Positions 36,878 through 52,204 of a DNA stretch of 57,933 nt are shown here, one piece after another. The number at the start of each line of letters is the position of its first letter. Position 1 is the first letter of the stretch. The notes below the pieces were generated by a model that was given only the letters and a program-made list of their open reading frames with translations, was not told the origin of the DNA and ran no database searches. The DNA is from a virus. The DNA lies in IMG/VR virus record IMGVR_UViG_3300028767_000024, positions 1-57,933 of that record. One strand, written 5' to 3'. A program made the translations under genes and the position numbers.

Positions 36878-38305
36878 TCAAACGTCAGTTCTCAGAACGA
36901 GAATGGTTTGATTCATATTAACAAAGATATTCATAGCTTCGGTAAGGGTGTACTCCGAAGAGTTATCCCAATCAGAAGAGAATGGAATTCCCCATCCGTT
37001 TACGCCTGCCTTATCACCCGTAATTAACCGGCGATTTTCTCCGCCATAATTCAGGAAGCCAAGGGTAAAGTTAGAAAGAGAAGCAGTCTTGGATGCAAGC
37101 ATAGAGCCATTAGGAAGACCCTGATTGATGGTTGCAGTAACTTTAGCGTCAGGGAAGATCATTCCAAGAGACTCGAAGTTATAACCGGCAGCACCGTACA
37201 GTTTTGGATTGCTGAACTCAGGAATGCGAACAATACGGGTAGTGAACCCATTTTTCGTGATCTGAGATACGCCGAATCCAATACCCTGCATTTTAGTGTA
37301 CAGGTCGGTTCCGCCTGAATATTCTTTAACCATATTCAAGGTAGCATTTTCAACGCCAAGTCCTAATTCGTTTCCAATAAGGAACATGCCTGATTGCCCT
37401 GCTACACCCTGAGATGCAAGCAAGAATGGGATGATGTCAAAATTATCCTCGGTAAACGAACCGGTATAATATTGTTTCATCGATTCAGCAATCATGGTAG
37501 GCAGTAATCCGTTATTACTCAGAACAACATTTGCTTCACCCTGCTCGTTAGCCTGGGTCCATCCGCCTGAGTGGGTAATCTTATAACCCATAAGTGCGGC
37601 ATCACTCAACTGATAACGTAAACGAAGCTGTGCATCGAGACGAGAACGTGCCTTTAAATTACCCAGAGAAGCGATTGCATCAAGTTCTTTCAATGCGCCC
37701 TGTCCACCCTCGTAGTTTATGGTTTCCTTCATAATACGGGTATTGTATTTCTGAGAGTAGAATTGGTCAATCAAACCGGCAGGCTGTTGAGTTCCGGCTG
37801 CAAACATAGAACCTCCGACTACCAACTCCTGAGTTACAGGAATGGCTACTGCCAACTGCTGTCCGGCAAGAAGCGGAACCAAGGTGTGAACCCAATGGTC
37901 GGTATCATAAGTTTTAACAGTACAACGATACGACTGCGGAATTTCTGCCGAGGTCATATATTTTGCAGGAATATGCACAACAAATCCTACACGGAGGATA
38001 TTTTTTGTTGACAAAAGAGTCAAAGACGCATTAGCCCCGGCGGCTTCAATCTGCGTTTTCACATCAATAGTGTCAAGAAAATAACCCTTGGTCAAAACGG
38101 TCATTTCACGGGTAGAGATATCGATGGTTCTTCCGGCAGCCATTTGTGCATCCCAGAATGTTAAACCTCCGTAGGGTTGGATTACTTCTCCATAATACTG
38201 AGGAGCAAGAGAAGTATCATTAATGGCGAAATCCTCACGCCAAGCTTCGGTGTATGCGCCCTGCCCTACGTGTGATACGACTGCGGGGCCTTTTGGTGTA
38301 CTCAT
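36878..38305 (-). CDS. Major capsid protein
   Basis: 475 residues, mixed alpha/beta, with the composition and length of an HK97-fold capsid protein (YYGEVIQPYGGLTFWDAQMA near the N-terminus, then LGNLKARSRLDAQLRLRYQL). It directly follows the acidic scaffold-like gene and precedes a terminator and the connector genes, which is the standard order portal-scaffold-capsid-connectors. I did not identify an E-loop or a cleavage site with certainty. The call rests mainly on order, size and composition. Confidence 0.75.
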   Translation of the reverse strand: MSTPKGPAVVSHVGQGAYTEAWREDFAINDTSLAPQYYGEVIQPYGGLTFWDAQMAAGRTIDISTREMTVLTKGYFLDTIDVKTQIEAAGANASLTLLSTKNILRVGFVVHIPAKYMTSAEIPQSYRCTVKTYDTDHWVHTLVPLLAGQQLAVAIPVTQELVVGGSMFAAGTQQPAGLIDQFYSQKYNTRIMKETINYEGGQGALKELDAIASLGNLKARSRLDAQLRLRYQLSDAALMGYKITHSGGWTQANEQGEANVVLSNNGLLPTMIAESMKQYYTGSFTEDNFDIIPFLLASQGVAGQSGMFLIGNELGLGVENATLNMVKEYSGGTDLYTKMQGIGFGVSQITKNGFTTRIVRIPEFSNPKLYGAAGYNFESLGMIFPDAKVTATINQGLPNGSMLASKTASLSNFTLGFLNYGGENRRLITGDKAGVNGWGIPFSSDWDNSSEYTLTEAMNIFVNMNQTILVLRTDV

Positions 38306-39510: not shown

Positions 39511-41931
39511 TTAAGTTTGTTGCGTCATCATTTGTTGTGGCATTTCTGCCGGTTGTGCTTGTTGTTCTTGTGGCTGAGGCGACCCTTGTGCGCCTTGTTG
39601 AGGCATGCTGCCTAATCCTAGCATTTGATCAGGTGTTTTTCCCCACTTAACAGTAAATTGACTCCACCACTCACGATTTAAAAATTCCATATTGTAATCT
39701 TGATCCTGCTTGGCGGCCTGCTGTTTCATTACTTCAAGCTGTTTCAATTGGTCGTTCTGAGCCTTGATAGCCTCTAATTTGGCTGCCTGTTGCTTTTCGG
39801 ATTTCTTTTCCATCATATATCCAAGCACCATTCCAATACGGCGCAGATTTTGGCGCTGATGAATCATGTCCATTATATGAATTCCCTCTGCTATATTACT
39901 TGGACTTCCATCGGGATTAGGTGCCATAAATTGCTGCACCATCGCCATAATATTTCTTTTTTCTTCCGTAATGTCCTGAGCCTCAATGGTTATGCCATAA
40001 GATACATGATTCTTTTCTGCATCGAGTACGGCCTTCATTCTTGTTTCTCCAATTACCTCGGCATAAGAATCTGCTATGACTTTATTCAAATGACAATACT
40101 GCCTGATCCGGTAGCATACATTTACCGAAACATCTTCCTGTAAATCGGTCACTGCCCTGACGATATTATTGATAATCTCATTAGTGCCCTGAACCGAAAT
40201 CTGCATGTTGAATTTGGCTACGTTCGGGTCAGCCTGTTCTCCTGTCGAGATTCCTGAAATTCCAGAAGTGGTTTCAATTAACGACAACTCTTTTGACATT
40301 GCCTCGAATTGAGCGCGAATGTTTTCGTGAGATGAATTATTTATTGGAATAACCGGCGGTGAAGCTGATCTCCCAAAGCCTGATAGTGAATTGTTTTTCT
40401 TGTATAACAGAAATGAACTCTGTTTGTAGAATTTTAACACTTCAAGCGCATCCCAACTTTTATCCTTACCGATGGATATTTCTTTCAATGCACCCACATC
40501 AACAGCAAATCCATTGGCTATTGCCTGTGCGATTGCATGTTGTGCCTTAATCCATGCCAATTGAAATCCTTTCAAGAACGGCTTAATCTGTACAATAATC
40601 GGCGTAGTTGCCAGCATAACACCGCGATAACTCAACCTTGGCATTCCAAATTTATCCTTGGCGATATATTCACTTTTACCCCAATCAAATACATAATCAG
40701 TACCGACTACCCACGAACATTTACGGACGTACCTGATCTGATTATCCATTAATGTTTCGTCATCATGTACTTCTCCGCGATATTCTTTTTCTCTTCTTCT
40801 TCCGAACTGATCAGTAAATCTCAGGTATTGCTCATTGTCAATATCAATCCATTCTGTGCTGAATACCGGTATCTTAAAGGCGTCAAAACTTGCATAAGAT
40901 GATGATCCCTCTCCAACTTGTTTATTGTAGTTTTCCCATCTATCCTGGGTAGGGTTTCCGTATTGCCCAGCATAAGACCTTGCCAATGCTGATGCGTCTT
41001 CCCATGATAAACCCAATCGTTGCCGGATAACAGATATCTCGATCAAATCATTGTCGTACCCAAATTCCGAGTTCTTAAATGATTTCCTTGAAGAAAACTG
41101 CATCCCCGAATGTGCGATGTCCTTATACTCAACAACAACACGGTTAATCTCTCTGTCGAATCTCTCCCTGATAATTGCATAACCATTAGTCAAAAGATCA
41201 TCCTTAACCTTTTCTGCAACCTCTTTATCCCAATCAGAAATTTCAAAGGTGTGCTTAATCAAATCTTCCATCGCAATCGAATACGGCACCCTGATACCAC
41301 CATTAGCGGCATAAAGTTCTAATTCGTCAAGATTGCGGGGCATGAAGTCAGGTTCGGATACACCTATACCTGCTGCTGCCATTTGGGAATCAACCCATTT
41401 CTGATTTTCTTTATAAAACCAAAGTTTATATTTTTCTGATTCCTCAGTTTTGATCGAGAATGAATCAATAGCACGAACAGCCATTTCGTAATACATAGAC
41501 CGGCTGTGCTCATTTATTTTAGTCTTGATTTTTGGGGCAACGCTTACGGGCGATAAATCCAAGTTCGCCCAAGCTTTTCTTCCTGATGATGGAGTCTGTC
41601 CGTTAATGTCGCGTACATCCTTTCCTGTTGCATCAAAGGCGCTCTCAGGAGTAGGATCATTACTTGTGCCAAATATTAAATCAACTGCAAATCTTGTGTC
41701 GTGAGTTCCATTTGACCATCTGCGGTTTTCTTCAATCGTATTTCGGGTAGCAGTAGTCATCCATGTTCTCCCGTTCAGGTGAAGGTTGTAAATTTTCTCA
41801 CACCACATCTTATGGTACTCTTCTGTCTTTTTATCGACAGGGATATTTTGATCAGGATAGACGAATGACCCTTCTTTGTAGTGGGCTTCCTTTTGAACTT
41901 TTAGTTTCTCGTTAGTCTTAATAACTGCCAT
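39511..41931 (-). CDS. Portal protein
   Basis: About 806 residues. Landmarks include a Trp/Tyr-rich N-terminal region (MWCEKIYNLHLNGRTWMT), SGISGISTGEQADPNVAKFN, then a long helical stem/crown (VTDLQEDVSVNVCYRIRQYC) and a Gln/Met/Pro-rich C-terminus. It lies immediately downstream of TerL, in the usual order. I chose the ATG at 41931, two bases past the TerL stop, because the upstream in-frame start at 41937 is TTG. The TGATAGTGA motif at 40381-40389 encodes NSLSG here. Confidence 0.75.
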   Translation of the reverse strand: MAVIKTNEKLKVQKEAHYKEGSFVYPDQNIPVDKKTEEYHKMWCEKIYNLHLNGRTWMTTATRNTIEENRRWSNGTHDTRFAVDLIFGTSNDPTPESAFDATGKDVRDINGQTPSSGRKAWANLDLSPVSVAPKIKTKINEHSRSMYYEMAVRAIDSFSIKTEESEKYKLWFYKENQKWVDSQMAAAGIGVSEPDFMPRNLDELELYAANGGIRVPYSIAMEDLIKHTFEISDWDKEVAEKVKDDLLTNGYAIIRERFDREINRVVVEYKDIAHSGMQFSSRKSFKNSEFGYDNDLIEISVIRQRLGLSWEDASALARSYAGQYGNPTQDRWENYNKQVGEGSSSYASFDAFKIPVFSTEWIDIDNEQYLRFTDQFGRRREKEYRGEVHDDETLMDNQIRYVRKCSWVVGTDYVFDWGKSEYIAKDKFGMPRLSYRGVMLATTPIIVQIKPFLKGFQLAWIKAQHAIAQAIANGFAVDVGALKEISIGKDKSWDALEVLKFYKQSSFLLYKKNNSLSGFGRSASPPVIPINNSSHENIRAQFEAMSKELSLIETTSGISGISTGEQADPNVAKFNMQISVQGTNEIINNIVRAVTDLQEDVSVNVCYRIRQYCHLNKVIADSYAEVIGETRMKAVLDAEKNHVSYGITIEAQDITEEKRNIMAMVQQFMAPNPDGSPSNIAEGIHIMDMIHQRQNLRRIGMVLGYMMEKKSEKQQAAKLEAIKAQNDQLKQLEVMKQQAAKQDQDYNMEFLNREWWSQFTVKWGKTPDQMLGLGSMPQQGAQGSPQPQEQQAQPAEMPQQMMTQQT

Positions 41932-41933
41932 GA

Positions 41934-44270
41934 TCAATAGTTATAAGTAGTTGCGCCTAAGCTAAATACCTCATCTGAATCACCGAAATCTTTCGACATG
42001 ATCTCAGCATAAGGGCTTTCATCCCCAAATAATGCCTCGATCACAGCAGAAAGTCCATCATACCCGGTAAGCTGTTCCATTGAGGATATTTCATCAGCTT
42101 CTTTCATCCACTCTTTGACCTTCTGAATTCGTGAGTGAAATGTAATAAAATTTCCTAATAATGCGAATCCATCCTTTTTATTTTCTGGTCCCATGTGAGT
42201 TCCCGGTTTTGCAGCCTTTCTCATGTCTCCCTGTGCAGATATTTCTACGTCATAATTCAGGTATCCGCCCATTCTCCATTCGATCAATCTTTCCCATACT
42301 TCTGATCTGTTGCGCTCACAATGTATCAATCCTCCATAGTAAATAGCTGCCATTAAAGCCTCGTTTGCAGCTTCTATGGATGAAGATAGCCTTTCCCGAA
42401 AGAATGCCACAATCTGTCTTGTTGTCCATTCTGCGGGATTATCGGACTTATCAATTTCCTTATCGCGTTTGCGTAAAACACAGATACCGGTGTCAGATTT
42501 TTTAGTATGACCGCCCTTAATATGAACTGCTTCTGCATTATTCGAAAATTGAGCAGGGTCTAATCCTACGATAAATTTAGGATCAGCAGGTCGGTTTACA
42601 AGTATCTCATCATCTTCAATCGCACTGTAATCCATCATTGACGACATCCTGTTTGCTGTTCCATAAGGCATCTCGTAGGAAATCACCCATCGACCATCTG
42701 CACATTCGTTGAACCCAACAATATAGTGCGCTTTGTCAATCCAATAGAAATTACCTCGCTTGGATTGAGATTTATTTTCAAGTTCGATAATTTTTTCTCT
42801 GAGCTTGTCGTTATCAAGCCCCAACTGTCCCGATACTCCTGTCCAGCACTCATCGTAGTCTTCGGGGAATTTACGGACAAAACTCTTTAGGTCACTCATC
42901 TTCTTCGGATCATCGGGCACGTTTAAATCCTTGCGTTTATTCCGAATATAAGCCGAGCTCCCAATTCTGCTTTCGAAACCTGCCTGAATCTGTCTTGGAG
43001 TTGGTTTCTCATAAACAGGATTGCCCCATGCATCAATAAATCCTTCCAAACAAAACGAACTTGGCATATAACAAAGGGATAATCCAGACGTTGTTTGTCC
43101 GTCAGCTTTTCTCTGGTAAAAATTTGAACTGTCTGCCATCTCCTTAAAATCTGCCCCACCCTCATTCATTTGTTCTACCGTGGATGGGTGCATGCAGAAT
43201 CCGATAATCTTTGATCCGCCACCAAGAGACATTGTTTCTTTGTTGATCTGCCAACGTGTTTGTACATTTCCGGTTCTCTTTCCTTTACCTTGTTCGTCGT
43301 ATCCTGCCGCAAGTATCATTTTTCCGTCATTAGCGAGGTCTTCTGCTGATTCGGTATAGTTTATCATGCAATCAAGAGTTTCGATGTCTGTGGGCATAGA
43401 AGCGGTAAATTCTAACTGTTTGACCACATTCATTCCACCCTTCCAAATTGGCTTAAGGAATAAATACCAACTATTCCAGGCGGGAATCAGTTTCTTCCTA
43501 AAATGTGTTTCTGCGTTTTCTCCTCCAAGGCTCACGATAGTGCCCAATTTATCGGCACCACGCTCACTTGTCATTATCCGGGTTATGATATGGCAGTATT
43601 CATTTGTCAATCCTCCGCGCCTATCTTTAGGCTCAATAGTTCCGAAGAATGTTCTCTTTCCTACATCTGCCATCCGGTAAACAAGTTTGCCATTTTCGTC
43701 CATAACCTTATAAGCAATGCCTTCTTTATCCAAGTCAGCAAACGTTTCGGTAGTATTCCAAATGTAATGGCGAAACAGGAAGCGGTATAATCCCTTTTTA
43801 CGATACTCAGGATATTGATAACCCTTCTCGGTTGTCATTCGATGAATATTCAGATATGAAAAATACCAACCCGGAATGAACGTAGGCTTACCGTCAATAT
43901 AACACCAATACCCGTAATTCATGAAGTAAATGAATCGCTTAATAAAGTTGATTTCATCTACGTAATTATTTCGGTCAGCTTCAAGTGTATTCCAATACGC
44001 CTGTAATATGTTTACCCCATTAGCCGACCTTACTGAATCCTGAAAGTCGCGTAGTATTTTCTTTTGAAGTGCCATCAATTTTATTGGCATCTCGAATCTA
44101 TTGAATTTTTGATCGTCAGGATGTAACCCAAATCCGTCAATTAGTGAAAGTTTTGGTGGTGCAGGTAAACTTATACGAATTGGTCGTAAATTCTTGGAGT
44201 TGAAGTTTACGACAAAAGACCGGTCTGCATCGGTATAAAGTGGGGAATATTTGCAGTAGTCATCGCTCAT
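41934..44270 (-). CDS. terL: Large terminase subunit
   Basis: 778 residues. The place of Walker A, EPKDRRGGLTNE at about 213-224, has the GG but neither Lys nor the usual GKS/T. Walker B is ILAAGYDEQGKG with Asp325-Glu326. The RNase H-like nuclease shows FIVGLDPAQFS (Asp571), IHCERN (Glu652) and a C-terminal acidic DGLSAVIEALFGDE. This is the packaging motor that cuts and threads DNA. It starts four bases inside the upstream gene and precedes the portal. The degenerate Walker A is shared by some Bacteroidota phage terminases, as far as I recall, and does not suggest a broken gene because the rest is intact. Confidence 0.85.
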   Translation of the reverse strand: MSDDYCKYSPLYTDADRSFVVNFNSKNLRPIRISLPAPPKLSLIDGFGLHPDDQKFNRFEMPIKLMALQKKILRDFQDSVRSANGVNILQAYWNTLEADRNNYVDEINFIKRFIYFMNYGYWCYIDGKPTFIPGWYFSYLNIHRMTTEKGYQYPEYRKKGLYRFLFRHYIWNTTETFADLDKEGIAYKVMDENGKLVYRMADVGKRTFFGTIEPKDRRGGLTNEYCHIITRIMTSERGADKLGTIVSLGGENAETHFRKKLIPAWNSWYLFLKPIWKGGMNVVKQLEFTASMPTDIETLDCMINYTESAEDLANDGKMILAAGYDEQGKGKRTGNVQTRWQINKETMSLGGGSKIIGFCMHPSTVEQMNEGGADFKEMADSSNFYQRKADGQTTSGLSLCYMPSSFCLEGFIDAWGNPVYEKPTPRQIQAGFESRIGSSAYIRNKRKDLNVPDDPKKMSDLKSFVRKFPEDYDECWTGVSGQLGLDNDKLREKIIELENKSQSKRGNFYWIDKAHYIVGFNECADGRWVISYEMPYGTANRMSSMMDYSAIEDDEILVNRPADPKFIVGLDPAQFSNNAEAVHIKGGHTKKSDTGICVLRKRDKEIDKSDNPAEWTTRQIVAFFRERLSSSIEAANEALMAAIYYGGLIHCERNRSEVWERLIEWRMGGYLNYDVEISAQGDMRKAAKPGTHMGPENKKDGFALLGNFITFHSRIQKVKEWMKEADEISSMEQLTGYDGLSAVIEALFGDESPYAEIMSKDFGDSDEVFSLGATTYNY

Positions 44271-44968
44271 TGGTCGCCTATGAATTTTAAAACAGGAATC
44301 TCATAATTTGATCCATAAGGGGTAATATCAACGACAGGTTCTCCGCGCTCTTTTTTAGTTATCAACTGTTCGGGACGAAGATCAAGACTTTTTCTATATG
44401 AGTCTTCGTAGAGCAAATTAACCAACGTTCGATCCTCCATTCCTGAAAATATTTTATAATTTAACTTATCAATATCTTCACGTATATCTTCCGCATTTTG
44501 TTTTGCTTTTTGTAGGTCTGACGGCTTATCGTAGTTATATTTCTGTAAATCTTTCATTACATTATAATACATTTCGTTGTACACCGAATGCATCAGCCAA
44601 TCTGAATCCCACTGTATGAATAGGTATAACATTATCAAGTCTGAAAATTGCGGATTCTTATTGAATATTATCGACTCAGACTCTACAGTAAATTTAAGTA
44701 GATTCCCATCATTAATCGTTGGAAATCCGGCTCTGATAGCACTTTCCTTTTTTTTCTGAATCCACCTAGACTTAAATTCTATGGCTATATGCGAATTCTT
44801 ATCATACGCAAATACCATATATCTCACAAGCATAGGAATAGTTATCCCAAGTGGCGGATCAATTTCTGAAACCAAATCACTAAACCCTCTGTCCAAATTA
44901 TATAACTCACTAATAATGTCATCATCAGTAGCGCCTGTTTGGATTAGACATCTTCCGTTTCCTGCCAT
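44267..44968 (-). CDS. Protein upstream of TerL, candidate small terminase
   Basis: 233 residues, helical, with no recognised HTH. The N-terminus contains IDPPLGITIPMLVRYMVFAYD, and its middle is a charged coiled coil (LQKAKQNAEDIREDIDKLNY). It overlaps TerL by four bases and sits directly downstream of the promoter at 44984-45014. Small terminase subunits are very divergent and usually encoded here, so that is the best guess, but no motif proves it. Confidence 0.4.
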   Translation of the reverse strand: MAGNGRCLIQTGATDDDIISELYNLDRGFSDLVSEIDPPLGITIPMLVRYMVFAYDKNSHIAIEFKSRWIQKKKESAIRAGFPTINDGNLLKFTVESESIIFNKNPQFSDLIMLYLFIQWDSDWLMHSVYNEMYYNVMKDLQKYNYDKPSDLQKAKQNAEDIREDIDKLNYKIFSGMEDRTLVNLLYEDSYRKSLDLRPEQLITKKERGEPVVDITPYGSNYEIPVLKFIGDQ

Positions 44969-44983
44969 AAATTATCGTTTTGT

Positions 44984-45014
44984 CAAAACTAATAAATATA
45001 TTTTATATTTCACA
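44984..45014 (-). promoter_or_regulatory. Late promoter candidate (TGTG-N19-TAGTTTTG)
   Basis: On the minus strand TGTG is followed by 19 bases and TAGTTTTG (44984-44991), matching TTTG-N19-TAnnTTTG with one mismatch. The start would be near 44977, nine bases before the ATG at 44968. It would drive the packaging and capsid operon. Confidence 0.5.
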
Positions 45015-45572
45015 TACACTATTATCCGGGAAATTTAACCGAGCAAAATCACCGCGCAATTCACGCACACGCTGGTCAAATGCATGAGCAGCGTCTATTT
45101 CATTATCGAAATATCCTAAATGCAATTGCTTACCATTATAATGTAACCACGCCCTCCATCGCCCATCTCTTTTAAACCATGAAACTCCCCTATATTTTGA
45201 TGTAGCCAATTCGTGTTTTAGCCCAGTGCACGTTTCAGATGCCCTGTTTTTATCTTCGTCTGTCCAAACCCTCCTTAATCCGCCTATTCTCAACTTTTTA
45301 TCCTCGTCACTTAAACTTTTCCAAAATTCAATATGAGAATCACTTAGTCTTTTTTTTGCAATTTCAGTGGCGTGACCTCCGGTTAACTTTATTGACGCTT
45401 TAGCTGCCGCAATCCGCCTACTTTCTTTAGATCTTTGTTTTAGTGCAATAATAATTTTATCAACCGCTTCCTTTTTATGCCTCCATCCGGCAGGACTACC
45501 ATCTCCGCCCTTAGTCCCATTGGTTAAGTTTTCTCCGTAGCTGATATCCAGTATCGTTCCCTTTCCTGCCAT
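45003..45572 (-). CDS. NUMOD3/AP2 half of a frameshifted homing endonuclease
   Basis: 189 residues, but the frame probably begins within a longer gene. Residues about 9-27 (ISYGENLTNGTKGGDGSPAG) continue the GIY-YIG protein encoded in the next frame upstream. They are followed by NUMOD3-like helices (KRLSDSHIEFWKSL) and an AP2 DNA-binding domain (SKYRGVSWFKRDGRWRAWLH, then HLGYFDNEIDAAHAFDQRV, ending RLNFPDNS). The apparent ATG at 45572 is not needed if the two frames were once joined. It ends in the gap before the terminase promoter. As it stands, it is either the C-terminal half of a broken endonuclease or part of a programmed frameshift product. Confidence 0.7.
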   Translation of the reverse strand: MAGKGTILDISYGENLTNGTKGGDGSPAGWRHKKEAVDKIIIALKQRSKESRRIAAAKASIKLTGGHATEIAKKRLSDSHIEFWKSLSDEDKKLRIGGLRRVWTDEDKNRASETCTGLKHELATSKYRGVSWFKRDGRWRAWLHYNGKQLHLGYFDNEIDAAHAFDQRVRELRGDFARLNFPDNSVCEI

Positions 45573-45820
45573 TCCTGCCTGCGAACCTTTTCGATAATGA
45601 TCAATTCAGGGTATAAGTCTAATTTCATCAATTCGTTCAACCATCTTGATTTGCGCGTGTTCGTATTTGCTTCATATCGATGGTCAGTAAATCTTTTTTG
45701 GGGATGTATTGATTTCCCAACATACCTAATTTCGCCGGATATAGGGCACTTTAGTCCATATATAAAACAATAATAATTAACCAAACCCCCTTTTTCTTCA
45801 TTGATTTTTAGCTTATCCAT
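45524..45820 (-). CDS. GIY-YIG catalytic half of a frameshifted homing endonuclease
   Basis: 98 residues from the ATG at 45820. FIYGLKCPISGEIRYVGKS is the GIY-YIG core, QKRFTDHRYEA supplies the conserved Arg, and WQERERYWIS carries the catalytic Glu. After YWIS the frame runs into ATEKT and stops, while YGENLTNGTKGG, the expected continuation, is found in the -1 frame beginning at the same bases (45540). One missing base near GC at 45540-45541 would restore a single GIY-YIG/NUMOD3/AP2 protein. The upstream frame to 45949 starts with TTG and lacks homology, so I take the ATG at 45820. A terminator-like hairpin sits directly before it. Confidence 0.7.
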   Translation of the reverse strand: MDKLKINEEKGGLVNYYCFIYGLKCPISGEIRYVGKSIHPQKRFTDHRYEANTNTRKSRWLNELMKLDLYPELIIIEKVRRQEWQERERYWISATEKT

Positions 45821-45832
45821 TTTTTTTAAATT

Positions 45833-45873
45833 AAAAACCCACAACCAGAGGAACGAGCTCCGGCAATGGGTTT
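45833..45873 (-). terminator. Two-part hairpin before the homing endonuclease ATG
   Basis: On the minus strand AAACCCA pairs with TGGGTTT, and inside it CCGGAG pairs with CTCTGG (one G-U). The structure is followed by TTTTTAATTT and then the ATG at 45820. It can end read-through transcripts or hide the ribosome entry site of the endonuclease gene. Confidence 0.6.
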
Positions 45874-45972
45874 CGTGAGTTATTACTAACTCAATATCTT
45901 CATGTAAATCTCGTTCATTTACCCGACCAAGATATAAAACTATTTTCAAAATCTACGCTCATATATAAATAA

Positions 45973-46016: not shown

Positions 46017-46739
46017 TTACTCGGCAGCTACAGTCAATGAGACCGTCCAGTTTTTACTTGTGATGCCATCGCTTGCAACTAATGCGTACACAACAGGTGT
46101 GGCAAAGCTGTTACTTGTGGCAGCACTTGTCTGCGCGGTAACTCCGATATTGGTAGACGATGATCCGCCGGTGCCGCTCCTCGTCCAAGTTGCGACCTGT
46201 GTGGTGCTTGTGCCAAATGGGGCTGTCAACGATACGGTTTTTGCAGCAACATTTATCGAGCTTGTGCTTCCGACCACAGGAATTGTAAATGTCAAAAAGT
46301 CAGCAGCATTACTTGCAACCAAAGTTGCTAACGTGCTATTGATATATTTCGTTTTGTTCTTAAACTGCCCGTCAGCAAAAATAAATGCAACTGCGGCGGT
46401 TTTAGTTCCTGAAATGTTTACGTAGGTATCTTTCAGTGAAATAAGATATTTCTCATTAAAAGATGTTGCAGTGGTTACGCCGGTAGTAGTGTCAAATACG
46501 TTGACGGTAAGCAAGGTAATTGCCGAATCGGTAGCGACCAAAGAATCAACTGCTGCCTTATTAACCGTAAGCGTAAGCGACTCTGGCTCCCAATTAGATG
46601 TAGCCTCATTCACATATCGAACTACGGCATAACCGGCCGAATTCTGATAATAATACACAATATTGCGAAGATTAATCGCAATTGTCTCGTTCGGAGTGAC
46701 CGATATTCCATTCTTTGAACTAACTGTTACTGTTTTCAT
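46017..46739 (-). CDS. Ig/cadherin-like structural or decoration protein
   Basis: 240 residues rich in Thr, Ser, Val and Ala. The C-terminal third (TFTIPVVGSTSSINVAAKTV, ending NWTVSLTVAAE) resembles a bacterial Ig/cadherin-like surface domain found in Bacteroidota adhesins and phage decoration or fibre proteins. The gene is monocistronic, with a perfect promoter 42 bases upstream and a terminator 20 bases downstream. This suggests high and independent expression, as for a decoration or head-fibre protein. The exact place in the virion cannot be read from the sequence. Confidence 0.5.
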   Translation of the reverse strand: MKTVTVSSKNGISVTPNETIAINLRNIVYYYQNSAGYAVVRYVNEATSNWEPESLTLTVNKAAVDSLVATDSAITLLTVNVFDTTTGVTTATSFNEKYLISLKDTYVNISGTKTAAVAFIFADGQFKNKTKYINSTLATLVASNAADFLTFTIPVVGSTSSINVAAKTVSLTAPFGTSTTQVATWTRSGTGGSSSTNIGVTAQTSAATSNSFATPVVYALVASDGITSKNWTVSLTVAAE

Positions 46740-49510: not shown

Positions 49511-49768
49511 ATGCCGTTAAAGAAGACAGCTATTTATTATCATAATCATCCTGAAGCCAGAAAAAAGAAATTATATTATGACCTGAAGTACGAGTCTACC
49601 CCGGAGCGCAAGAAATATCGGTCGTTACTCGCTATTGCTAGGCATAAAAGAGGATTAACTCATAAAGCCGGTGACTTATCACATACAAAAAATCACACGC
49701 TCGTGCTTGAAAATAGATCACGCAATCGCGCAAGGCAGGGTAGCGGAGGGGGGTCGACCTTAAAATAA
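49511..49768 (+). CDS. Conserved basic phage protein (SHTK/RSRNRAR type), rightward
   Basis: 85 residues, strongly basic. The pattern KKTAIYYHNHPEARKKKLYYD, then RKKYRSLLAIARHKRG, then DLSHTKNHTLVLENRSRNRA matches a small protein I have seen in many short-tailed phages (tyrosine pair, PEARKKK, later DxSHTK and xxNR), often of unknown function and sometimes reported in virions. It is the only rightward gene in the leftward half. Candidate promoter elements precede it. It ends right at a terminator hairpin that serves the converging gene. Confidence 0.6.
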   Translation: MPLKKTAIYYHNHPEARKKKLYYDLKYESTPERKKYRSLLAIARHKRGLTHKAGDLSHTKNHTLVLENRSRNRARQGSGGGSTLK

Positions 49769-49818: not shown

Positions 49819-50490
49819 TTACTCAACAGTGCAGAGCACCATAAATCTTGGAACTGCATATAAGTCTTCTTCCAGCACTTTATTCAAGTCCCCCTCAATC
49901 TTATACGGACTCATTCCTACCATGATTTTAACCTGATCTCCTGCTTCCCACGGAGTAGTTGTGTTTCTTCGTGGAATTGTAGATACCGCATCTTTATCGG
50001 GTAGCTGTTTAATTTTCCATATATCAGTAATTTCCTGAGTCTTTGAATACGATAATGCAGTAACTGTTTTTGATACCGGAGATAAAAGTACATATCCGTT
50101 AATCGGCGTTATTACACCATTCCTAACCCTGATCAAAATGCCATGATAATCAATTAAAGCGTATTTCTCTCCGTCACATACAAGTATCTGCATATCCATA
50201 CAGACGGTTAAATTCCAGAATACGGTATCGCCAATTTCAAGTTCATTTTCAGTATCGTAATCGAATCCGTATCTGCTGATCAGCCTTGGTAATCTGACAA
50301 CTTCTCCGTGACGCGGAATAAAATCGGATACGTTGTGACCAGTACTGTCCGACCACGCACCTTCATGAATTGAACTCTTGATTGTAATTCCAGATTTGGT
50401 CTGCATCTCGTCAAACGTGTCCTTGATTTTGATCAGGCACTTGTTCATTACAGGACGACCTAGCCCATTGACGCTGATTTCATTCCTCAT
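49819..50490 (-). CDS. Tandem GroES-like protein (two cpn10-type domains)
   Basis: 223 residues that read as two GroES-like barrels. In domain 1 (about 14-124) NKCLIKIKDTFDEMQTKSGI matches the DRVLVKxxxxEExTxGGI strand-turn, RHGEVVRLP matches GKVVAVG, and ELEIGDTVFWN then CDGEKYALIDYHGILI matches VKxGDxVLF...GEEYLLLxExDILAV. In domain 2 (about 125-222) NGYVLLSPV, EAGDQVKIMV and NKVLEEDLYAVPRFMVL repeat the pattern. It overlaps the single-domain GroES gene by eleven bases. It probably works with host GroEL and the small GroES to fold phage proteins, as gp31 does in T4. The fusion is unusual. Confidence 0.55.
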   Translation of the reverse strand: MRNEISVNGLGRPVMNKCLIKIKDTFDEMQTKSGITIKSSIHEGAWSDSTGHNVSDFIPRHGEVVRLPRLISRYGFDYDTENELEIGDTVFWNLTVCMDMQILVCDGEKYALIDYHGILIRVRNGVITPINGYVLLSPVSKTVTALSYSKTQEITDIWKIKQLPDKDAVSTIPRRNTTTPWEAGDQVKIMVGMSPYKIEGDLNKVLEEDLYAVPRFMVLCTVE

Positions 50491-50764
50491 CCTCTACCAA
50501 AATTAAATCGTTTTGAGCAACTAAGTCCATGCCGTCAACTTTGGTTATGATTACATCATGCTTGTAAATCACGATATCACCAATTTCAACTTCCATTGGA
50601 ATACTAGGAAGTCCTCCGCCGATTTCTTTTACTACTGCCCTGATTGGCAGGTTCGATTTACTACTCATTCCTAGTGGAATAATGATACCAGCCTTAGTCG
50701 TTTGTTCCTTCTGCTTCGACTCGCAACGGAGACAAAGTATGAGAAGGTTCTTTAATTTTGTCAT
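50480..50764 (-). CDS. GroES-like co-chaperonin
   Basis: 94 residues. LLILCLRCESKQKEQTTKAG then IIIP fits the first GroES strand and the mobile-loop region. Next come IRAVVKEIGGG (GxVVAVGxG), VEIGDIVIYKHDVI (VKxGDxVLF) and NDLILVEDEE (xDILAV). The length matches the family (94-100). Phage co-chaperonins replace or support host GroES in folding the capsid protein. The gene overlaps the upstream one by 71 bases in another frame and the tandem protein by eleven bases. The loop is slightly longer than in host proteins. The call rests on motif order rather than any search. Confidence 0.65.
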   Translation of the reverse strand: MTKLKNLLILCLRCESKQKEQTTKAGIIIPLGMSSKSNLPIRAVVKEIGGGLPSIPMEVEIGDIVIYKHDVIITKVDGMDLVAQNDLILVEDEE

Positions 50765-50990
50765 CTTCGTAACTGTTTATTACAATGTCTTTTAATTTAA
50801 CGTCCTGTACTTCCCCGTTAATAGGATTAAAAATGTATGCTACCATATACTGTTCCGATGTAGCGTATTCTCCTGAGCCCTGAGAAAATGTTTCCTGACA
50901 GATGGTTATTACCTTGCATAAACAATCTGAACTAGGCTTCTCGTCGTCAGGATCCTCAAAAACTTTGATGTACGCGTCAATTATTTTCAA
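50694..50990 (-). CDS. Hypothetical protein with TTG start, 98 aa
   Basis: 98 residues, acidic, beta-rich at the start (KIIDAYIKVFEDPDDEKPSS), with CLCKVITICQE and a disordered acidic end. The apparent start is TTG at 50990, one base from the stop of the HNH endonuclease, and the frame stays open a little further upstream. It may therefore be the 3' part of a gene cut by the endonuclease insertion. It overlaps the GroES-like gene by 71 bases. Function unknown. Confidence 0.45.
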   Translation of the reverse strand: MKIIDAYIKVFEDPDDEKPSSDCLCKVITICQETFSQGSGEYATSEQYMVAYIFNPINGEVQDVKLKDIVINSYEDDKIKEPSHTLSPLRVEAEGTND

Positions 50991-50991
50991 T

Positions 50992-51579
50992 TTAATTATT
51001 TTTAGTTGTTAACTTCCAGATAAATCCACCAGCCATTTCCGACCTTCCGTGTGTGCAGTTCGATATACTCGTTCCTAATATTCCAGTGTTTTCCGTAGCG
51101 TATCTTATGCAATCAAAGGTGTTGATTAATTCTCCTTTTAAATCTCTCTGTTCTACAATCTTTCGCGCAAAGCTAAATTCTCCTAGCTTACCCTTCCCTG
51201 ACGATACCCTTCCCCCAACTCTATATGCGTGAATACAATCCTCTGACTTAGTGGCCCATTCTAAATTAGACGCGTAGGGATTAAGTCTATTGCTATCTAT
51301 GTGATTAACGCATGGTTTATTTTTCGGATTAGGAATAAACGCGATTGCGACAAGTCTGTGCACCCGGTGCACCATGAATTTTCCGTTGTTGTCGGTTAGA
51401 TTTACGGTCCAGTATCCAGTAGTCGCTATTTGCTGAACCTTTAGCCTAGCTTTCATTGTGGCCAGACAGTATCCTCTCCTCACCTGTCTCTCGTATCTCC
51501 AAACCCTACCAAGATTACTAACCTGATATAACCCTTCATAACCAACTACATCTTTCCAAATTTCTTCTTGATTTTCCAT
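50992..51579 (-). CDS. NUMOD4-HNH-NUMOD1 homing endonuclease
   Basis: 195 residues from the ATG at 51579. EIWKDVVGYEGLYQVSNLGR is NUMOD4. HRLVAIAFIPNPKNKPCVNH then IDSNRLNPYASNLEWAT is the HNH nuclease (His in RLVA, Asn-His in VNH, Asn in SNLEW). The tail, NTFDCIRYATENTGILG then SEMAGGFIWKL, is NUMOD1 for DNA binding. The open frame reaches 51927 but overlaps the DnaA-like gene in another frame and lacks homology, so I use 51579. A start at 51672 is possible. The element is mobile and interrupts the order between the DnaA-like gene and the GroES genes. Confidence 0.75.
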   Translation of the reverse strand: MENQEEIWKDVVGYEGLYQVSNLGRVWRYERQVRRGYCLATMKARLKVQQIATTGYWTVNLTDNNGKFMVHRVHRLVAIAFIPNPKNKPCVNHIDSNRLNPYASNLEWATKSEDCIHAYRVGGRVSSGKGKLGEFSFARKIVEQRDLKGELINTFDCIRYATENTGILGTSISNCTHGRSEMAGGFIWKLTTKNN

Positions 51580-51706
51580 ATTAAAATACCCATACCAATC
51601 ACAAGGGCGATCCAGTCCTGCGAAGTTGCAGATAGGCAATGTGACTAATATGGGATTTTTAAATGTTTTCATAACTGAATCGCGATACAAAGATATAAAA
51701 ATATTT

Positions 51707-52204
51707 CTACTTAGTGAAATTAAAGCGTAATTTTTCAATCGACTCCTCAGCCTTTTCGATAGCTTCAATAACTTCGGCATCAGTACATTCATCTGAAAGA
51801 AATGCATTAGCTCTATCCATGAGCCTGACAAATACTGCATTTTGTTCATGGATAATACCGTAGAGTCCGTAATCCTTGGCAGTAGAAAAATTATTGCGCG
51901 TATTGGATTCTTCTTCCTGGTGTTCAAAACACGTTTTCAAATACTTATCAACCATCTGTTTAAATGGTGCATCGTATTCAGACCTGTCGTCCAGAACTCT
52001 TTTACTATGGGAAACAGAACAATGCCCTTTTAATCCAAATCTTTTTGCATTATCGTCCTGACACATCCTATGGCTCTGTTCCACATAAACCATACATAGC
52101 ATCCTGGCAAGGACTTCTTCTCCTTTCCTGGTCTTGGTAAACATTTTTTGAATGTTCGCCCCGGTCGTCTTTGCAGCTAAAAGCTCATGAAATTTATAGG
52201 TCAT
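51707..52204 (-). CDS. DnaA domain IV-like DNA-binding protein
   Basis: 165 residues. Residues about 30-75, ARMLCMVYVEQSHRMCQDD then NAKRFGLKGHCSVSHSKRV, fit the C-terminal helix-turn-helix of DnaA (ARxxAMYLxRELT...IGxxFGxxDHTTVLHAxxKI), including the FG-H-S-V core that contacts DnaA boxes. There is no AAA+ ATPase part. The rest is helical with an acidic C-terminus. It lies in the replication cluster and might bind an origin or occlude host DnaA boxes. It precedes the HNH element. Confidence 0.6.
   Translation of the reverse strand: MTYKFHELLAAKTTGANIQKMFTKTRKGEEVLARMLCMVYVEQSHRMCQDDNAKRFGLKGHCSVSHSKRVLDDRSEYDAPFKQMVDKYLKTCFEHQEEESNTRNNFSTAKDYGLYGIIHEQNAVFVRLMDRANAFLSDECTDAEVIEAIEKAEESIEKLRFNFTK

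Follow-up and report, generated by a model that had tools for sequence, protein, structure and literature searches.

An overlapping pair of phage genes for a single and a probable double GroES protein, and the mixed co-chaperonin lid that they may form

Results

The GroES gene pair and its conservation

The window, that is, the whole stretch of DNA analysed here, is virus record IMGVR_UViG_3300028767_000024, with a length of 57,933 bases. Two GroES-type genes lie next to each other on its minus strand, preceded by a short open reading frame (ORF). The features of this locus are as follows:

50694..50990, minus strand: ORF of about 98 aa that overlaps the start of the single GroES gene (ORF listing)
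50480..50764, minus strand: single-domain GroES/Cpn10 co-chaperonin, 94 aa (Pfam PF00166)
50657..50716, minus strand: putative mobile loop (KQKEQTTKAGIIIPLGMSSK) of the single GroES, in which a G-I-I-I motif resembles a GroEL contact (alignment, position and motif)
50480..50490, minus strand: 11-nt overlap between the stop of the single GroES gene and the start of the tandem gene (ORF coordinates)
49819..50490, minus strand: probable tandem GroES protein, 223 aa, two barrels head to tail (PHROG 3188 on the N-terminal half, together with AlphaFold2 and Foldseek)
50122..50457, minus strand: barrel 1, residues 12-123 (single-GroES profile alignment)
50371..50400, minus strand: mobile loop of barrel 1, TKSGITIKSS, residues 31-40 (alignment of five homologs)
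49846..50115, minus strand: predicted barrel 2, about residues 126-215 (AlphaFold2 strands and a full-length match to tandem co-chaperonins; sequence at WEAGDQV only)
50023..50073, minus strand: loop of barrel 2 at the place where a mobile loop is expected, residues 140-156 (alignment and the model of the L096 homolog)

A preliminary description of this DNA had reported both GroES-type ORFs and quoted several motifs from them; all were recovered on the minus strand at the coordinates given above. It had also described a tandem barrel adjoining a single one, and this arrangement is real and kept in relatives. Closer relatives are rare (L094, L095, L096 and L102/L106), with a terminase large subunit (TerL) that is 52-65% identical to that of the window. 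When these were searched for the same gene pair, it was found in four further members of the clade: L094, L095, L096 and L102 all keep the tandem gene, whose product is 39-49% identical to the 223-aa protein in alignment, and in each of them a single GroES frame precedes the tandem gene and overlaps its start with its own stop (by 11 nt in L094, 8 in L095, 11 in L096 and 4 in L102). Homologs of the 94-aa protein, 36-41% identical to it, occupy the same place in L095 and L096. A tblastn search of 50,697 phage records with the 94-aa and 223-aa proteins gave no match, and a scan of genome contigs with the tandem family found no relative.

The overlapping frames in the window and in the four relatives suggest that translation of the two genes is coupled. 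We also considered a frameshift that would fuse the 94-aa and 223-aa frames, and rejected it: the offset is +1 in four of the phages, but in L102 the two frames share a plain overlap of 4 nt (ATGA), and coupling is hence the simpler reading.

Short ORFs of 89-104 aa are found at the place of the 98-aa ORF in all four relatives (L094:4841-5149, L095:3913-4227, L096:7057-7335 and L102:9206-9475), and a '(F/Y)-N-P-x-x-G-E'-like stretch recurs at this place. Neither 50694..50990 nor its L096 counterpart has a family match in Pfam or PHROG. This ORF of about 90-104 aa, which stands before the single GroES gene in five phages, is possibly a third member of the operon. On the other side of the pair, a plus-strand ORF of 85 aa (49511-49768; PHROG 6437, of unknown function) runs opposite to its neighbours, between the tandem GroES gene and a tail-type gene.

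The 94-aa protein

With 27.4 bits, the 94-aa protein exceeds the Pfam Cpn10 cut-off of 21.1 (PF00166; E 3.5e-6), and a profile built from three homologous sequences, with it among them, matches solved GroES structures, the best at 3e-7. Its match to PHROG 931 is weak (2e-4), and it falls far under the NCBIfam equivalog cut-offs. By its sequence, the ORF is a Cpn10/GroES protein. GroES-type lids bind GroEL via a mobile loop that carries a hydrophobic tripeptide. When the corresponding region of the 94-aa protein was aligned with that of E. coli GroES, TKSAGGIVLTGSAAAKS, the hydrophobic GroEL-contact tripeptide was found to be present, with TTKAGIIIP standing opposite TKSAGGIVL of E. coli. From this position and motif we infer that 50657..50716 encodes the mobile loop. 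The protein thus belongs with the bacterial GroES (Cpn10) proteins by Pfam score and mobile-loop motif, and is unlike them in being phage-encoded and divergent.

In L102, the single GroES (L102:9423-10004, plus strand) continues beyond the lid part into a fused C-terminal segment of about 95 aa, in which a CxxC...CDC stretch resembles a zinc ribbon.

The two halves of the 223-aa protein

Residues 13-122 of the 223-aa protein cover positions 5-94 of the 96-position PHROG 3188 profile, 'co-chaperonin GroES' (E 4e-6), and all five members of the 223-aa family match this profile (best 9e-10). Against barrel 1 (residues 12-121), a single-GroES profile scores 53.0, while the maximum among 60 column shuffles is 18.1. 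In the barrel-1 loop, G34 is invariant and G-[IV]-x-[ILA] is found in all five homologs. A Pfam search with the whole 223-aa protein gave no match, and its second half has none in Pfam, PHROG or NCBIfam. Against barrel 2, the single-GroES profile scores 22.5 (shuffle maximum 14.9), but the alignment is limited to 19 columns around WEAGDQV. At the level of sequence, then, barrel 1 is proven and barrel 2 only suggested. The loop of barrel 2 keeps a conserved hydrophobic pair (TALSYS, KAMEFA, FLEYTN), and the canonical G-I-x-I/L motif is absent from it in the alignment of five homologs; since its mobile loop is without that motif, barrel 2 may not bind GroEL.

AlphaFold2 (AF2) was run without templates on the 223-aa protein of the window (pLDDT 65.8, pTM 0.66) and on its L096 homolog (pLDDT 63.0, pTM 0.67). 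Confidence is moderate, and in each run no more than two of the five models exceed about 47; the two models disagree in the 133-162 region, and loop 141-154 of the L096 model is of low confidence. In each of the two models, barrel 1 ends in a strand (118-123) that continues into the first strand of barrel 2 (126-129) with no linker, as is expected for neighbours in one ring. Foldseek places 7ekq_R, the 'Cpn20 co-chaperonin subunit', at the top of the PDB matches for both models (E 2.2e-4 and 3.4e-5, about 228 columns), and 7ekq_Q, 'Chaperonin 23', ranks second and ninth. E. coli GroES matches each of these two chains twice, and the remaining credible PDB matches are single GroES chains. In a viral structure library, the best matches are full-length proteins of 183-304 aa, including the 200-aa 'chaperonin cpn10' of Cellulophaga phi18:3. 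We regard a weak hit in a PDB sequence search, phage gp85 (8y6v; E 0.16), as a chance match.

The models support a second barrel and a Cpn20-like tandem architecture, and we conclude that the 223-aa protein is likely to consist of two GroES barrels head to tail. The two GroES-like barrels of the preliminary description are therefore borne out strongly for barrel 1 (PHROG 3188 and the profile) and moderately for barrel 2 (AF2 and the short profile match), and the structure prediction that it had proposed gives the tandem co-chaperonins Cpn20/Cpn23 as the best full-length PDB matches.

The terL neighbourhood

Downstream of the GroES pair, and in the same orientation, lie terL and genes that accompany it:

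44267..44968, minus strand: 233-aa gene directly upstream of terL (ORF listing)
41934..44270, minus strand: terminase large subunit, terL (PHROG 6681, 2.8e-41)
39511..41937, minus strand: portal protein (PHROG 6547, 2.2e-46)
36878..38305, minus strand: candidate major capsid protein, 475 aa, a possible client (size and position only)

The candidate capsid gene is placed after terL, the portal gene and a 389-aa gene, as in the gene order of phi46:3, elemo and phi38:1; its 475-aa product has no family match. The tandem gene lies upstream of terL in the same orientation, at 5.5 kb in the window and at about 1-4 kb in L094-L096. The gene at 44267-44968 was considered as a third GroES gene before terL and rejected, the 233-aa protein being without a GroES match; a counterpart of 228-231 aa stands before terL in L094, L095, L096 and L102.

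In the window, homing endonuclease genes (NUMOD4/HNH and GIY-YIG-type; 50992-51927, 45003-45572 and 45524-45949, all on the minus strand) are immediate neighbours of the GroES operon and precede the terL block. The corresponding places in the listed relatives are free of them, except for a 191-aa HNH-type ORF in L094. A structural-type protein is encoded between the GroES pair and terL (46017-46739, minus strand; L095:8794-9297, L096:8736-9308), and its C-terminus varies, with Thr-rich tandem repeats (TTTTTTEEEV, TTTTTTAAP) in the relatives and another tail in the window.

A wider family of tandem genes before terL

The TerL of the window shares 23-28% identity with its counterparts in Cellulophaga phi46:3 (Pachyviridae) and phi38:1 (Pervagoviridae), in the Flavobacterium elemo phages and in MW202828. 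All of these phages encode a protein of 180-200 aa just before terL, annotated as 'co-chaperonin GroES' or 'chaperonin cpn10', and as hypothetical in MW202828. PHROG 13932 (200 positions) describes this protein (phi46:3 gp092, phi38:1 gp089, elemo gp30 and MW202828); its profile is matched neither by the 223-aa protein of the window nor by any of the five members of that family at E <= 1. Pfam Cpn10 recognises the second half (1.5e-9 for phi46:3 gp092 and 2.1e-6 for phi38:1 gp089), which is the mirror image of the window family, and single-GroES profiles match both halves, with scores of 27.8 and 35.9 against shuffle maxima of 15.3 and 16.8. In the phi46:3-like loci L170 and L146, a G-x-x-Phi-type loop is present in both barrels, with GSIFIPD in barrel 2. 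When the two tandem families were compared by HHalign, only barrel 1 was supported (29.1; highest shuffle 19.9); between the two second barrels the score was 14.8, a value reached by 6 of 60 shuffles. Judged from position, the two families are likely, rather than provenly, orthologous.

The profile of the 180-200-aa family matches at least 571 IMG/VR stretches. We also chose 61 distant loci by TerL, independently of the tandem-gene search and with enough upstream DNA; a tandem gene precedes terL in 60 of them and ends 0.3-1.1 kb before the TerL match. Among the loci whose upstream DNA was long enough, L127, with a TerL 33% identical to that of the window, is the only one to lack a tandem gene at this place; elsewhere in its record, G012, is a lone canonical single GroES (1.2e-18). 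L127 is a possible outgroup for dating the tandem fusion.

The preliminary description had set the tandem barrel against phage co-chaperonins of a single domain. As a general statement this contrast fails, because several families of Bacteroidota phages have long 'co-chaperonin GroES' genes of the tandem type, with PHROG 13932 proteins in Pachyviridae, Pervagoviridae and Elemovirus. Like the PHROG 13932 type of Bacteroidota podoviruses, the 223-aa protein is probably tandem-type and is encoded upstream of terL, and its model has a full-length structural match to phi18:3 cpn10; unlike that type, it has a longer barrel 1 and, in the window clade, an adjoining single GroES gene that overlaps its own. 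'Chaperonin cpn10' is given as a core protein of the Pervagoviridae by Bartlau et al. (PMC8776804), and GroEL is reported in phi38:1-related marine genomes by Nishimura et al. (PMC5332604); the searched text of these two papers has no mention of a double domain, and no description of a phage protein as tandem was found in the open-access PMC literature. The window clade is apparently a divergent branch of a phage family that is already annotated, apparently uncharacterised, and Cpn20-like in architecture.

Sixteen records longer than 50 kb carry the tandem gene (the window, the L094 and L096 records, G006-G009, G013-G017 and the four named phages). In these records, which may be fragments, a single GroES, counted by Pfam or by homology to that of the window, is found in 15 of 16 (G008 being the sole exception) and GroEL in 10 of 16. 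GroEL was not found in the records, possibly fragments, of the window, its close relatives or phi46:3; these phages would then depend on the GroEL of the host. The single and tandem genes are adjacent in the window clade only. They are kilobases apart in the other families, and in Pachyviridae, Elemovirus and Pervagoviridae the single gene is often beside groEL and the tandem gene beside terL.

Discussion

Plastid Cpn20/Cpn21/Cpn23, with Cpn10/Cpn11, resemble the window pair, with its probable two barrels head to tail and a single-barrel partner encoded alongside, and for the models of the 223-aa protein and its homolog Cpn20/Cpn23 give the best structural match over the full length. The window pair differs from the plastid type in that it lies in a phage record (terL, portal) and at about 9-19% identity; moreover, its barrel-2 loop has diverged in the window clade, whereas Pf-cpn20 keeps mobile loops in both domains (PMC3542282). 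In plastids, a functional ring of seven domains is built from three Cpn20 and one Cpn10 (PMC3542282, citing Tsai et al. 2012; PMC5780408), and the chains of 7ekq (one Cpn11, one Cpn23 and two Cpn20) also add up to seven barrels. The mixed ring put forward in the preliminary description has its precedent there. According to a 2013 study, tandem co-chaperonins are confined to plastids and algae, apart from a relative in the apicoplast (PMC3542282). T4 gp31 is, as the window pair would be, a phage-encoded GroEL lid, with a larger chamber for the capsid protein gp23; it is a single-barrel homo-heptamer (PMC6318259), unlike the 223-aa protein, which is not single-barrel.

On balance, we think it probable that this phage co-chaperonin pair makes a mixed lid of seven barrels that works with host GroEL on a virion client. 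The overlapping frames would yield the single-barrel GroES (94 aa) and the head-to-tail double GroES (223 aa), and we infer that the two co-assemble, for example as one single and three doubles to give seven barrels; an overlapping single-plus-double gene pair would supply the exact parts of a plastid-type ring. The mobile loops would dock the mixed lid on GroEL of the host, since none is seen in the window record, and the lid would enclose a folding space that suits a virion protein encoded in the adjoining terL-portal-capsid module. By analogy with T4 gp31, the client may be the capsid protein, and the place of the genes beside that module fits.

A broader proposal, which we put forward only tentatively, is that Bacteroidota podoviruses, by independent evolution or by acquisition, came to meet the seven-fold mismatch as plastids do, with a pseudo-symmetric 1+3 lid of seven barrels for host or phage GroEL, in which a non-equivalent barrel 2 tunes the chamber for a virion client. 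If this is true, hundreds of aquatic phages would have some version of the 1+3 lid at the core of their packaging module. Hundreds of phage sequences have a tandem GroES gene beside terL, in most cases together with a single GroES and frequently with GroEL, and asymmetric co-chaperonin rings can therefore be studied in cultured flavophages (Cellulophaga phi38:1 and phi46:3; Flavobacterium elemo). Such work could show how lids with an even number of barrels serve a seven-fold chaperonin, and why a phage lid is needed for capsid folding.

Co-occurrence of the two proteins does not prove that they mix, because plastid Cpn20 also works as a homo-oligomer (PMC3542282). The two proteins might make separate lids, the single GroES a normal heptamer and the tandem protein a homo-oligomer of six or eight barrels for a different client or stage. 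Such an arrangement has a precedent in plastid Cpn20, which forms tetramers and works alone with its eighth domain excluded (PMC3542282; PMC5780408), and it agrees with the distance between the two genes in Pachyviridae, Elemovirus and Pervagoviridae. In the window clade, however, the genes overlap and the pair is conserved in five phages, which favours joint production, and we regard separate lids as rather unlikely.

Other readings give the tandem protein a different role or fold. Its near-fixed position just upstream of terL (60/61 loci) and the divergence of barrel 2, which has no visible canonical G-[IV]-[IV]-L loop in MW202828 and elemo, would suit a GroES-derived head-assembly or packaging factor that is no longer a GroEL lid; 7ekq, too, shows that a partner other than GroEL, namely ClpP, can be bound by a tandem co-chaperonin ring (PMC8889267). 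Yet barrel 1 keeps the canonical mobile-loop motif (TKSGITI and variants), L170 and L146 keep it in both barrels, and a single GroES co-occurs in nearly all genomes, so that a loss of the lid function seems improbable. Residues 126-223 could also be a beta domain of another kind, joined to one GroES barrel, as might be read from the lack of a Pfam, PHROG or NCBIfam match to the second half, the alignment of the single-GroES profile over 19 columns only and the differences between the AF2 models in the 133-162 region. We consider this very improbable: both modelled homologs match Cpn20/Cpn23 over their full length, and in the related family it is the second half, in phi46:3 gp092 and phi38:1 gp089, that Pfam identifies as Cpn10.
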